From positions 1 through 47,365 of the forward strand of contig JANWZE010000036.1 in assembly GCA_025054955.1 (NCBI GenBank): 47,365 nucleotides of DNA, written 5' to 3'. This document shows, piece by piece, positions 179 to 47,365 of this stretch. The notes below the pieces were generated by a model that was not told the DNA's origin, ran no database searches, and saw only the letters and a list, made by a program, of their open reading frames with translations. The stretch comes from Blastocatellia bacterium. Lineage in GTDB: Bacteria > Acidobacteriota > Blastocatellia > HR10 > J050. The position numbers and the translations under genes are program-made. Each line of letters opens with the position of its first letter. The first letter of the stretch is position 1.

Positions 179-190
179 GATCTCAGGAAG

Positions 191-283
191 CGGCGTCGTT
201 AGACGCCGCAAGAGGGTAGCCAGACGTGAAACGTCTGGGTCGAATGTCATCCCCCAATTTCCAGGGCGCCTTGGAGAGGCGCC
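191..283 (+). repeat. Three-hairpin module, unit 1 (A-B-C)
   Basis: Three perfect small stems follow one another. A is CGGCGTC, loop GTTA, GACGCCG (191-208). B is CCAGACGT, loop GAA, ACGTCTGG (220-238). C is GGCGCC, loop TTGGAGA, GGCGCC (265-283). The A-B linker contains GGTAGC. Units at 341-428 (reverse) and 29243-29329 (forward) keep the order, linker and loops while the stems of A and C differ. It could be a mobile hairpin element or part of a structured RNA. Confidence 0.8.
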
Positions 284-340
284 AGCAGTGCTCCCATTGA
301 GTCGTTCGTGCTGAATCGCTCGCCGTGAACACTCATCTCT

Positions 341-428
341 TGGCGCGTCTCCAACGCGCCAGGATTGTTTGGTCTGCTGTTCCAGACGTTGCGCGTCTGG
401 CTACCTGCTGTTTGCGCCTCTGGCGCAA
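341..428 (-). repeat. Three-hairpin module, unit 2 (reverse orientation)
   Basis: Read on the minus strand the order is again A-B-C. A is TTGCGCC, loop AGA, GGCGCAA (428-412). The linker contains GGTAG. B is CCAGACG with a five-base loop and CGTCTGG (400-382). C is TGGCGCG, loop TTGGAGA, CGCGCCA (361-341). The C loop is identical to unit 1 although the stem sequence differs. It faces unit 1 as an inverted pair about 57 bases apart. Confidence 0.8.
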
Positions 429-451: not shown

Positions 452-646
452 CCAGATGTTGCACGTCTGGCGACCATCGCGTGTGTGGCCGCCGCTGCTG
501 CTCTCCCAGCTCGCTCAGTTCAAAACGCCAAGTTCAGCAGATTTGTACTCGGGCGATTCATCGCCGTTGTGGCGCGCCATTAATGAGGTTGCTGCGAATC
601 TTATTTTCCGTCGTCTGCCCTCACGTATGGGCAAGCCCTTTGGGCT
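452..646. repeat. Further hairpins downstream of the module pair
   Basis: A third B-type hairpin lies at 452-470 (CCAGATG / CGTCTGG); its sixth pair is G-U on the RNA of this strand. Two more small stems follow at 552-565 (GGCGA, loop TTCA, TCGCC) and 634-646 (AGCCC, loop TTT, GGGCT). No credible gene is visible from 1 to 720: the open frames there have no ribosome site and no recognisable protein. Confidence 0.6.
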
Positions 647-7760: not shown

Positions 7761-10700
7761 ATGAAGAATACGCGTTCAACTGCATTGGTCTGTCTAATGG
7801 TTGTAGTGACCTTGACTCTGCTCAGTGTAGCCGATCCGTCATTTGGCGCGCGCCCGGTGGCAGTTCCTCTTCAGTCAAATTCTTCGTGTTTTGAAGACAT
7901 CCCTGCGGACGAGAGCACTGACTTGCCTGGCCCGCTCTCGAATCAGAGAAACATTCCAGCAGGTTCGTTGATCATTCCCATGGACAATAGCAAGCAAGCG
8001 ATCGTTGCCCCGTTCAACCTTAAGGCCTATGGATTGGTCAATCACTTGCTTCACAATAATGTTCCTGTGCTATGGGCCATCAGGGCTGGCAAAGCCAAAG
8101 ACGGTGTAGATTTCACCGCGACGGCCCAACGTCTTTATCCTTCAGCTCAGGCAGCAGCCAATTTAAGTTTCAGCGGGGGGCCATTTATCGTACATCGAGA
8201 CTATGCTGCCGTGGCCAAGCCGCTAATGACGGCCTTTGGCAACAACGTGGCTGTTTACGAAATGACAGCGGACGCCACGATTGACATTCGCTACCAACTA
8301 ACACACAAACCGAGGATCGCATTATTAAACAATGGGGGAAATGCATCTATTCATCAAACGATTCTGGATCTTGCCGGCATCCCCAATTACCAGATCGTAG
8401 CCAGCGCCGCCTCGCTCGGCACAAGTTCATGCTACACCCTCGCTAGTGAGGCGCACTGGCTCGATCTTACGGCGACAGCCACAGTGGCGGCGGTGAGGCA
8501 ATTCATTCAATCCGGTGGTAACTTCTTCGCCCAGTGTGAGGGGGTTGATACCTATGAAAATGTCGGCCTTCTACAGACAACGGCTGGGATTACCAAGTCG
8601 AATGTGTCCGGCGGTTTTACCTATCCCAACGCCGACCTCTCTTACAGTCAATTCGTGGGTGAGCTCGCCGACGAAGGTGGCTCATTTCGCGATTGGTTGC
8701 TCTCTCCGGGCTCCAGTTTCCAGAACGGGGGGCACATCCATGTTCGAAATACGGGCGGTTCACAGCAAATGGTGGCTACCGCTGCCAAATTGAGAACAGG
8801 TACCGGGGGCATGGTCTTCATGTTGGGCTCACATAATTACGCAAACACACAGGATTTGCCGCATTACAACGGCCTCCGGATGTATTTGAACGCTGTCATG
8901 ACGCCCGCCGATAGACCGCTGGGGTGTGGACTTGAGCTCACAGTGAACCGAGTTGAATTGATCTTGACCATGACGGTCAATAATCCAACGCCGAGTGTGG
9001 GAGATACGGTTGTCTATACTCTGACGTTGACTAACAACGGCCCGGATGTAGCTACCAACGTCACTGTAACCGATCAGTTACCATCCGGTTTGACTTTTTC
9101 TTCCTATACGGCCAGCCAGGGAACCTATAACAGCAGCACCGGCGTCTGGACTGTCGGCAATTTACCCGTGAATGCAACAGTCACCTTGGTCCTGCGCGCG
9201 ACAGTCAATGCCGGCACAACCGGCCGGACTTTGAACAACAGCGCAACTGCGACTGCCTCCGGACAATGTGAATTAAATCTCACCAACAACACGGACAGTG
9301 AACCTATCACGATCACAGCTCCAAATAGGCCGCCAGATGCCGTGAATGACAGTTACGGCGCGACTGAAGACACCACACTGGTTGTAGGCGCAATGAGTGG
9401 TGTTCTGTCTAATGATACTGATCCTGACGGTGATCTGCTAACAGTCACCAGCACCGGTGCTATCAACACGGCTCGCGGTGGGACGGTGATGATGAACGCT
9501 AATGGCAGCTTCAGTTATTCGCCGCCGGCCAATTATTGTGGGCAAGACTCATTTGCTTACACGATCAGCGATGGTCGAGGTGGGACAGACACGGCCACGG
9601 TGACGGTGAACGTGACGTGTGTCAACGATCCGCCTGATGCAGTGAACGATAACGCGAGCACGAACGAGGACACGCCCGTGACGATCAACGTGTTGAGCAA
9701 TGACACGGATGTGGATGGGAATCCGTTGAGCGTGACGGGTGCGAGTGATCCGCCGCGTGGGAGTGTGACGATCAACGGCAATGGGACGATCACGTACACG
9801 CCGGATGCGAACTTGTGCGGACAGGATAGTTTCACCTACACGATCAGCGATGGTCGAGGTGGAACTGACACGGCCACGGTGACGGTGAACGTCGTCTGCG
9901 TCAACGATCCACCTGTGGCCAATGATGATACAACGGGCACCAACGAAGGCACGCCGGTGGTCATCCACGTGCTGAGTAATGATTCCGATGTGGACGGTAA
10001 TCTTGATCCGACGTCGGTGAGCATTACGGTTAATCCGAGGCATGGCACGGTCACGGTCAACCCGGTCACCGGCGCTGTGACGTACACGCCGAATCCGGGC
10101 TTCAACGGCATTGACACATTCACGTATCGAGTGTGCGACAACGGTGGAGCATGCGATACGGCTGTGGTGACGATCGGCGTGAATTCCGTTGACGATCCGC
10201 CTGTGGCCAATGATGACAGCGCCGTAACCAATGAAGACACGCCGGTCATGATTAACGTGGCGTTGAACGACACCGACCTGGATGGCAATTTGAATGTGGG
10301 CAGTGTAACGGTCACGGTCAATCCAGGCCGTGGTACGGTGTCAGTCAACCCAGCAACCGGCGTGGTAACGTATACGCCGAACCCAAACTTCCACGGCGTG
10401 GATACGTTCACCTATCGCATCTGCGACACAACGTCGTTGTGCGATACAGCCGTTGTCACGGTCACGATCAGGCCTGTGAATGATCCGCCGGACGCAGTCA
10501 ATGACAGTTACAATGCGACGGAGGACACGACGCTGACGGTGAGCGCGGCGCAGGGCGTGTTGGCCAATGACGTTGACGTAGATGGTAATCCGTTGACAGT
10601 GACCAGCACAGGATTCATCACGACGACTCGCGGTGGAACGGTGAGCATGAACGCCAACGGCAGTTTCAGTTACGATCCGCCGGCGAACTTCTGCGGGCAG

Positions 10701-28857: not shown

Positions 28858-29242
28858 CATGCGCTCATCGCGCACCGCGCCGGTCATTGCCTCTTGGCAA
28901 GCAGTTGCAGAGAAGCAATTTCCTAAAGCTTGTTTTCGTTGCCTCTGGGATGAGTGAGCCGCGGCAATGAGACGCCCGCGCCAGCTCACAGCGCCTGTTC
29001 AAAACGCGCGGATTCGAGGATGATGCTCAAGCCTCACATCAGATACCAATAGTCCGGCAAAACGCCGTGTTTGATGAAGCGATATGGAGAGCAAACGTCC
29101 AAAGCAGTAGTCTACGAGCTTGCGTGGCCATTTGGTATTACTTCGTCATGCTACGCTCGTTTCTGCTGAGCCGCGTCAGCGGCCGGCAAGTTCCGGAGGG
29201 TGCGCCTTCCTGGCGCTTTCTGTGGTGGCTTTGCATCTAGAG
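28858..29242. other. Non-coding region left of the second hairpin locus
   Basis: No gene is supported between the nuo promoter and 29242. A hairpin of the A type (GCCGC, loop GTCA, GCGGC) is at 29170-29183. The 21-base word that contains it is repeated exactly at 29243-29263, a period of 73. No relic of nuoA or nuoB could be read in any frame. Confidence 0.5.
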
Positions 29243-29329
29243 GCCGCGTCAGCGGCCGGCAAGAAGGTAGCCAGCCGTGAAACGTCTGGGACAGCAGAGC
29301 AAGCCAGAACGGCGCGTTGGAGACGTGCA
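29243..29329 (+). repeat. Three-hairpin module, unit 3
   Basis: A is GGCCGC, loop GTCA, GCGGCC (29242-29257). The linker is GGCAAGAAGGTAG. B is CCAGCCGT, loop GAA, ACGTCTGG (29271-29289, one mismatch). The next linker contains ACAGCAGAGCAA. C is GCGCG, loop TTGGAGA, CGTGC (29312-29328, one G-U pair). This is the same order, linkers and loops as units 1 and 2. Confidence 0.78.
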
Positions 29330-29441
29330 CGAGACGCGCGCGTTCGCAGCCACGGGTTGGACAGCATGAACGAGCTAATGGGAAAGCGCGTGGCGTTCCA
29401 TCAGGGCGCGAAGGATTGTGGAATGACGGCCATCGAGGGCG

Positions 29442-29482
29442 TTTCACGTCTGGCTACCCGCTGGTGGGCGGCTCCCGCCGCC
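29442..29482 (-). repeat. Three-hairpin module, unit 4 (partial, reverse)
   Basis: On the minus strand A is GGCGGC, loop GGGA, GCCGCC (29482-29467). The linker contains GGGTAGC. B starts as CCAGACGT GAA and then stops; its second arm and hairpin C are missing. It faces unit 3 in inverted orientation, as unit 2 faces unit 1. Confidence 0.7.
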
Positions 29483-45036: not shown

Positions 45037-45120
45037 GGAAATCGCCCCTATGCTATGGCACGCCACGAACGATGAAAATGGAGCACGAGCAGGAATGCCT
45101 GTGCCACAGTCTTACAGGAG
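45037..45120 (+). repeat. Dispersed repeat R1, copy near the rhodanese gene
   Basis: GAAATCGCCCCTATGCTATGG is followed by the core CGCCACGAACGATGAAAATG (45061-45080), then a GCA/GGAA/TGC hairpin and CTTACAGGAG. The order matches 98-178. The final AGGAGG (45116-45121) also serves as the ribosome site of the next gene. Confidence 0.8.
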
Positions 45121-47086: not shown

Positions 47087-47365
47087 CCACGTTGCTTCGT
47101 TCTCACGAGAGCAGTTTGTGAACGAGTTTATCGCGGGGGCGCACGCTTGCAACGTGCATGAGCCGGCAAGATGTGGGACCCTCAGCCCAAAGGCAATTGA
47201 AAATCGCTCCTCTGACAATAGCCCACGAAACACACGAATCTCACGAAAGAATTGTATTTTCATCGTTCGTGGCGGACGCGGAGCTCATGCGCGATTCCTG
47301 ACTTTATCTTTGGAGTGCGCCGGCAGAGCGAAGCGGCGACGGCGCTTTTGGTTCCAATACTCCGC
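47087..47365 (-). repeat. Dispersed repeat R1, right-end copy
   Basis: Bases 47201-47341 match R1 on the minus strand. They carry the core ATTTTCATCGTTCGTGGCG at 47257-47275 and the 50-base word inverted relative to 1-50. The stretch 47220-47256 also matches 15287-15320. Another small stem, GCACG...CGTGC, lies at about 47142-47157. Only the last 24 bases are beyond the recognisable repeat. No gene is seen. Confidence 0.8.

Follow-up and report, generated by a model that had tools for sequence, protein, structure and literature searches.

The window, i.e. the entire stretch of 47,365 nucleotides that was analysed, is one contig (C36) of a 4.69 Mb Blastocatellia genome. It contains four copies of a modular repeat made up of three successive hairpins, here termed A, B and C, with a GTAG foot immediately 5' of B (Table 1). 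The initial annotation had described such units from the letters alone, and direct reading, folding z-scores and counts of the B core against controls all indicate that they are real. Folded as DNA, units 1 and 2 each form the three hairpins with z-scores of -5.9 to -6.6 relative to dinucleotide shuffles, none of 200 of which folded equally well, and the window holds four matches to the B core where shuffled sequence holds none. All four units are present at corrected coordinates, and a B-only copy beyond unit 2 had been overlooked. The units face one another at both loci, as had been proposed, unit 4 of the second couple being decayed. On direct reading, the B core of unit 3 contains one mismatch and its hairpin C one G.T pair, while the B core of unit 4 contains four mismatches and is eroded in its far half. 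When the pair of units 1 and 2 is folded as a whole, B pairs with B' and C with C', and A and A' form separately. The C loop had originally been read as an invariant TTGGAGA; TGGAG does lie within it, but the outer T and A pair with each other, leaving TGGAG as the loop, and many other copies in the genome carry TGAAG or TGCAG instead.

Table 1. Hairpin units, cores and pairs in the window
Feature	Position	Strand	Description
Unit 1, hairpin A	190-209	+	Stem GCGGCGTC/GACGCCGC, loop GTTA; direct reading and DNA folding
Unit 1, GTAG foot and hairpin B	216-238	+	Foot 216-219, hairpin 220-238; REP core, loop GAA
Unit 1, hairpin C	265-283	+	GGCGCCT-TGGAG-AGGCGCC, loop TGGAG; direct reading and DNA folding
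Unit 2, hairpin C	341-361	-	Loop TGGAG; direct reading and DNA folding
Unit 2, hairpin B and GTAG foot	382-404	-	Hairpin 382-400, foot 401-404; core with one change
Unit 2, hairpin A	412-428	-	Stem TTGCGCC, loop AGA; direct reading and DNA folding
Head-to-head pair (REPIN-like element)	190-428	.	Units 1 (190-283, +) and 2 (341-428, -); BLAST, couple table and pair folding
Extra B core (B-only copy)	452-475	-	Two mismatches; in tandem with unit 2, 70 bp farther out
Unit 3	29242-29328	+	Complete; A 29242-29257 (loop GTCA), B core 29266-29289, C 29312-29328
Unit 4, decayed	29435-29482	-	B core 29435-29458, A 29467-29482, C decayed

The consensus of the B hairpin, GGTAG-CCAGACGT-GNA-ACGTCTGG, is found perfectly at 59 places in the genome, and at least 124 copies of the core are present if a single mismatch is allowed. 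Allowing up to three mismatches raises this to 100 + 102 raw matches, as against none for a reversed control, although this figure is in part a double count because the core is nearly palindromic. The loci gathered from the genome yielded 148 distinct cores at 65 sites, among which 42 neighbouring couples are arranged head-to-head, with core starts 150-173 bp apart, and only one is tail-to-tail; several tandem arrays have a step of about 70 bp, and single units also occur. BLAST recovers whole facing pairs at about 40 sites in the genome, the copies being about 73-89% identical. Taking open reading frames (ORFs) of at least 250 aa as a crude approximation to genes, 8% of cores lie within one, as against 43% of positions drawn at random from the same loci. 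A search of plasmid DNA with the unit found no match. One contig of the collection (C139, L010/L056; record 10119-10496) carries an array of six units with a step of 70-71 bp, the last of which is inverted, and the units therefore expand in tandem too.

Comparison of the flanks of the collected loci revealed no clean empty site; such sites are not discernible because the flanks carry another repeat family. This second dispersed family, marked by motifs such as CACGCCACGAAGC, occupies positions 20-185 of the window, recurs in part near 45040-45082 and 47207-47299, and has 75 matching places in the genome. It adjoins a number of the hairpin pairs, whose outer limits are blurred as a result.

Two matches to the Y1_Tnp family can be found in the genome. 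One lies at C75:22380-22652 (41 bits), where no matching ORF of 150 aa is listed, while the other is a full, single-copy gene of 148 aa at positions 2515-2961 of contig C135, here called TnpA. Seven cores lie upstream of it in one orientation and three lie downstream in the inverse orientation. Its product matches PF01797 (81 bits) and NF033573 (63.5 bits), and its motifs DHVH (HuH), WQKGY (WQ) and YVLNQENHH (Y---Q--HH) are intact; the last recurs in all 26 relatives aligned, with single substitutions at the final H as the sole exceptions. A profile of these relatives detected the ISDra2 and IS608 transposases among PDB entries and did not detect the E. coli RAYT. Likewise, a Foldseek search with the AlphaFold model (mean pLDDT 90.9) returned ISDra2 and IS608 at about 1e-8, as against 2e-4 for the E. 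coli RAYT (4er8). The nearest solved relatives of the enzyme are of the IS200 type, and it does not qualify as a classical RAYT. The class 2 RAYTs (TnpAREP) are characterised by the tyrosine motif YxxxNP (PMC6006769), in place of which this protein, HuH motif included, has YVLNQENHH; it fits the signature of TnpAY1 subclass 1.2 (Y---Q--HH, WQ, DH[IV]H and a length of about 148 aa), which places the element as a whole outside the RAYT/REP group in its current definition. It shares the HuH/Y1 fold and Y---Q motif of IS200/IS605 elements, but is present as one copy rather than as several near-identical mobile ones. The gene and its repeat arrays (C135 238-4287, L053) are situated between two genes of the RAMP superfamily (PF03787) and appear to lie within a cluster of type III CRISPR-Cas genes.

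It is very probable that the units are REPs arranged in REPIN-like inverted pairs, non-autonomous and spread by this single-copy HuH/Y1 transposase. Among the options raised initially was a REP-like mobile hairpin, and this is borne out by dispersed copies lying mostly outside long ORFs, a GTAG foot, inverted pairing and the IS200-like transposase gene flanked by them. The B hairpin is a palindrome with a GTAG-type 5' foot, its many copies are largely extragenic, and the head-to-head couples, together with the whole pairs recovered by BLAST, have two inverted REPs as the unit of dispersal; the one usual attribute of REPs that is absent is association with a class 2 RAYT, which the flanking enzyme is not. 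By form, this is a REP/REPIN family, and it presumably functions as one, with repeats that have been mobile.

The distribution of repeat and enzyme between genomes was also studied. When 84,980 species genomes were scanned for the exact core, 71 stretches were returned, almost all from Acidobacteriota and, within these, mostly bearing Pyrinomonadaceae and Chloracidobacterium titles. The top-scoring relatives of TnpA, from other Blastocatellia, have the core beside the gene, several of them on both sides. Across two samples totalling 98 genomes, the core is present in all five that encode a member of this TnpA clade (a match of at least 281 bits) and in three of the 93 others. In a quick tree, the transposases flanked by the CCAGACGT stem group together with an SH-aLRT of 90; their clade has just one further member, whose imperfect stem, CCGGATGT/ACGTCTGG, is nearly identical. 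B stems differ in other clades, examples being CCGGTGGT, CCTGTGG and CCAGTGG; each stem tested is multicopy in the genome it comes from and does not occur in the genome containing the window. The sequence of the stem follows the TnpA tree.

Several individual cases stand out in this survey. One genome (G029) encodes two such transposases, one flanked by CCAGACGT cores and the other by CCGGTGG (on contigs C66, L118, and C79, L083/L125), and so constitutes a natural specificity experiment in which each enzyme is flanked by its own B stem. Another (G006; e.g. L058, L059 and L060) contains 32 or more cores but lacks any Y1_Tnp match, these orphan repeats reflecting either gene loss or an assembly gap. 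In a third (G011:C23:1082868-1083264, L064), two facing cores lie at a distance of 374 bp, and no TnpA gene is listed in the interval, which might represent a decayed copy of the enzyme. A single exact core, with a GAA-loop hairpin upstream, is found on a Planctomycetota contig (L129, 6116-6138), and may be due to chance, transfer or mis-binning of the contig.

The arrangement of the three hairpins extends beyond this clade. The 180 bases outside each TnpA gene were scanned for an A hairpin with a GNA/GNNA or TGNAG loop, a TAG/AAG foot, and then B and C. The full order is found in 31% of 70 flanks, compared with 6% on the wrong strand and none of 2100 shuffles, the wrong-strand count being the better control. 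In this test, and in those for TAG feet and for retention of A and C, the shuffles kept base composition and not dinucleotides. Hairpins with a TAG foot adjoin 17 of 33 TnpA genes (1.3% in shuffles), the foot varying in relatives as (G/T/A)TAG. About half of the 70 flanks fail the architecture scan, some of them owing to imperfect stems that are visible in an inverted-repeat search. Around exact cores in other species, A and C are both retained in 70 of 94 cases, with stems that vary and loops that obey the same rule. Of two relatives from Bacteroidota, that of Bernardetia fails the scan, while that of Persicobacter, plasmid-borne and 42% identical, shows the A-TAG-B-C order, its foot being TTAG, its B stem CGATGGGT and its C loop TGAAG.

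These data bear on the alternative that B alone is the substrate of the transposase, A and C being unrelated neighbours copied along with it in this lineage. B is the nearly invariant part of the unit, and both B-only copies and tandem steps of 70 bp exist, which favours this alternative. Nevertheless, the recurrence of A and C around cores in other species, with different stems and the same loop rule, as well as around TnpA genes with different B stems and at the one Bacteroidota locus, makes it unlikely that they are passengers.

The stems other than that of B, which hardly varies within this genome, show how strongly the folded form has been preserved. Pairs were counted directly, rather than through a covariance model, because the triloop and tetraloop classes of hairpin A share no common columns. 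Across 54 aligned units, the A stem is paired in 95.6% of cells, the maximum for shuffled alignments being 81.5%. In the C stem, one pair is C-G in 24 units and G-C in 24, another is T-A in 39 and C-G in 11, and the covariation score was reached by none of 500 shuffles. Hence the changes that keep pairing, which were initially noted from a handful of stems, are confirmed across the genome. The loops are equally constrained: 51 of the 54 A loops are GNNA or GNA, those of B are mostly GCA or GAA, and those of C are mostly TGGAG, TGAAG or TGCAG, i.e. T(GNA)G. In DNA, mini-hairpins of the types C(GNA)G and C(GNNA)G have exceptional stability.

The stability of the hairpins and their compensatory changes would also suit a role in RNA, and REPs of E. 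coli can function in mRNA; the units could thus be transcribed and act as a small RNA, an mRNA stabiliser or an attenuator. Departures from pairing, however, are as often A.C (16) as G.T (18), so that no strand-specific tolerance of G-U is apparent, and just 9 of the 37 A tetraloops are GNRA, most being GNNA of other kinds. These two features favour a single-stranded DNA structure over RNA. Furthermore, the curated covariance models of Rfam give no match at the gathering threshold, and the units flank, and follow, a DNA transposase. The structured RNA suggested in the initial annotation is accordingly improbable as the main explanation, while a secondary RNA role for some copies is possible.

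It is similarly improbable that the repeats are immobile protein-binding or terminator elements, maintained by the host for chromosome organisation or transcript ends, with TnpA a neighbour by chance. The single copy of the gene, the age and divergence of the repeat copies, their intergenic position and the view that RAYTs are domesticated (PMC8266576) could all be read in this way. Against this, the repeat and the TnpA clade co-occur across genomes, the stem follows the TnpA tree, and on direct reading no T-run follows the hairpins; use by the host after spreading is possible. That the units are a MITE of an ordinary DDE transposase, with long inverted repeats that fold by chance, is most improbable despite their intergenic position and inverted-repeat layout of about 250 bp, given that the gene they bound is of the HuH/Y1 type and that single units and tandem arrays exist besides pairs. 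Some observations count against the preferred reading itself: no clean empty site among the collected loci, the divergence of the copies, the orphan repeats of G006, and the failure of about half of the TnpA flanks and of one of the two Bacteroidota relatives in the architecture scan.

For repeats spread by TnpA, a mechanism can be modelled on the IS608/ISDra2 transposases and the E. coli TnpAREP, and by this analogy binding, cleavage, strand choice and the roles of A and C may be outlined. When one strand becomes single-stranded, for instance at a replication fork, A, B and C would fold into hairpins with GNA/GNNA-type loops. TnpA would then recognise hairpin B and its 5' (G/T/A)TAG foot, the latter acting as the guide to the cleavage site, and the catalytic tyrosine, putatively Y114, would cut and rejoin the strand, so moving the pair of facing units. 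Hairpins A and C would belong to the end structure as constant components; they might clamp the strand in its folded state or, through the TGNAG loop, offer the enzyme a second contact.

REPs have so far been associated with class 2 RAYTs, while for the nearest group on the IS200 side their absence is on record (PMC6006769). The data suggest, with somewhat better than even probability, that the TnpAY1 with the subclass 1.2 signature constitute a separate REP-making lineage, in which a three-hairpin end (A, TAG foot, B and C, with GNA-type loops) is shared across phyla while the B stem changes with the enzyme. If so, RAYTs are not the only enzymes with REP systems, and an intermediate stage between IS200 insertion sequences and RAYT/REP systems may survive in this lineage. 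GTAG REP/REPIN families on the IS200 side bear on the origin of REPs from insertion sequences, a question left open previously (PMC8266576). In addition, the many natural pairs of enzyme and repeat, two of them in one genome, provide material for establishing what TnpA reads in the folded strand.

The initial annotation could name no described family of this layout. REPs and REPINs as a kind are well known, but searches of open-licence PubMed Central papers turned up no account of the three-hairpin unit or of REPs tied to this subclass of enzyme. The nearest precedents found there are those of Di Nocera et al. (2013, PMC3733652). These include the TIRtrons of Acidobacteria such as Koribacter, in which tyrosine transposases are accompanied by long terminal inverted repeats, some of them multicopy, that are described as unrelated to GTAG REPs. 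The same study reports degenerate GTAG units in Pseudomonas, present in hundreds of copies, in which the REP is joined to one other hairpin and no A-TAG-B-C plan is described. Class 3 TnpAY1 enzymes are likewise associated with REP-like dispersed hairpins in Acidobacteria, about 600 in Solibacter, but with a CnGA foot and a Y----Q motif instead of the TAG foot and Y---Q--HH found here (PMC6006769). A 2025 survey of REPs reports thousands of palindromes in Chloracidobacterium and other Acidobacteriota, its main text naming no RAYT or transposase (PMC12306157).

With IS200/IS605 elements such as IS608 and ISDra2, whose end hairpins are recognised as single strands, the system shares the catalytic domain and the Y---Q motif. 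It differs in having more than 120 hairpin units for a single TnpA gene, whereas those elements carry a single small hairpin at each end and lack a GTAG REP family. The resemblance to TnpAY1 subclass 1.2, assigned by motif only, comprises Y---Q--HH, WQ, a length of about 148 aa and low copy number. That subclass is recorded mostly from Cyanobacteria and Bacteroidetes and as having no REPs (Quentin et al. 2018, PMC6006769), in contrast to the Acidobacteriota host and the REPs on the gene flanks described here, where TAG-foot hairpins adjoin 17 of 33 genes and 31% of flanks have the full plan. Finally, as in the RAYT-associated REP, REPIN and BIME systems (the E. coli REPtron and Pseudomonas REPINs; PMC3116915, PMC8266576, PMC2817692), a short palindrome with a GTAG foot occurs in many intergenic copies and in inverted pairs, and a single-copy Y1 gene has repeats of its own on its flanks, with a stem that varies with the enzyme. 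The difference lies in an enzyme with YxxxQxxHH rather than YxxxNP, closer to the IS608/ISDra2 transposases than to the E. coli RAYT, and in repeats that have three hairpins in each half rather than one and a foot that varies among relatives as (G/T/A)TAG.
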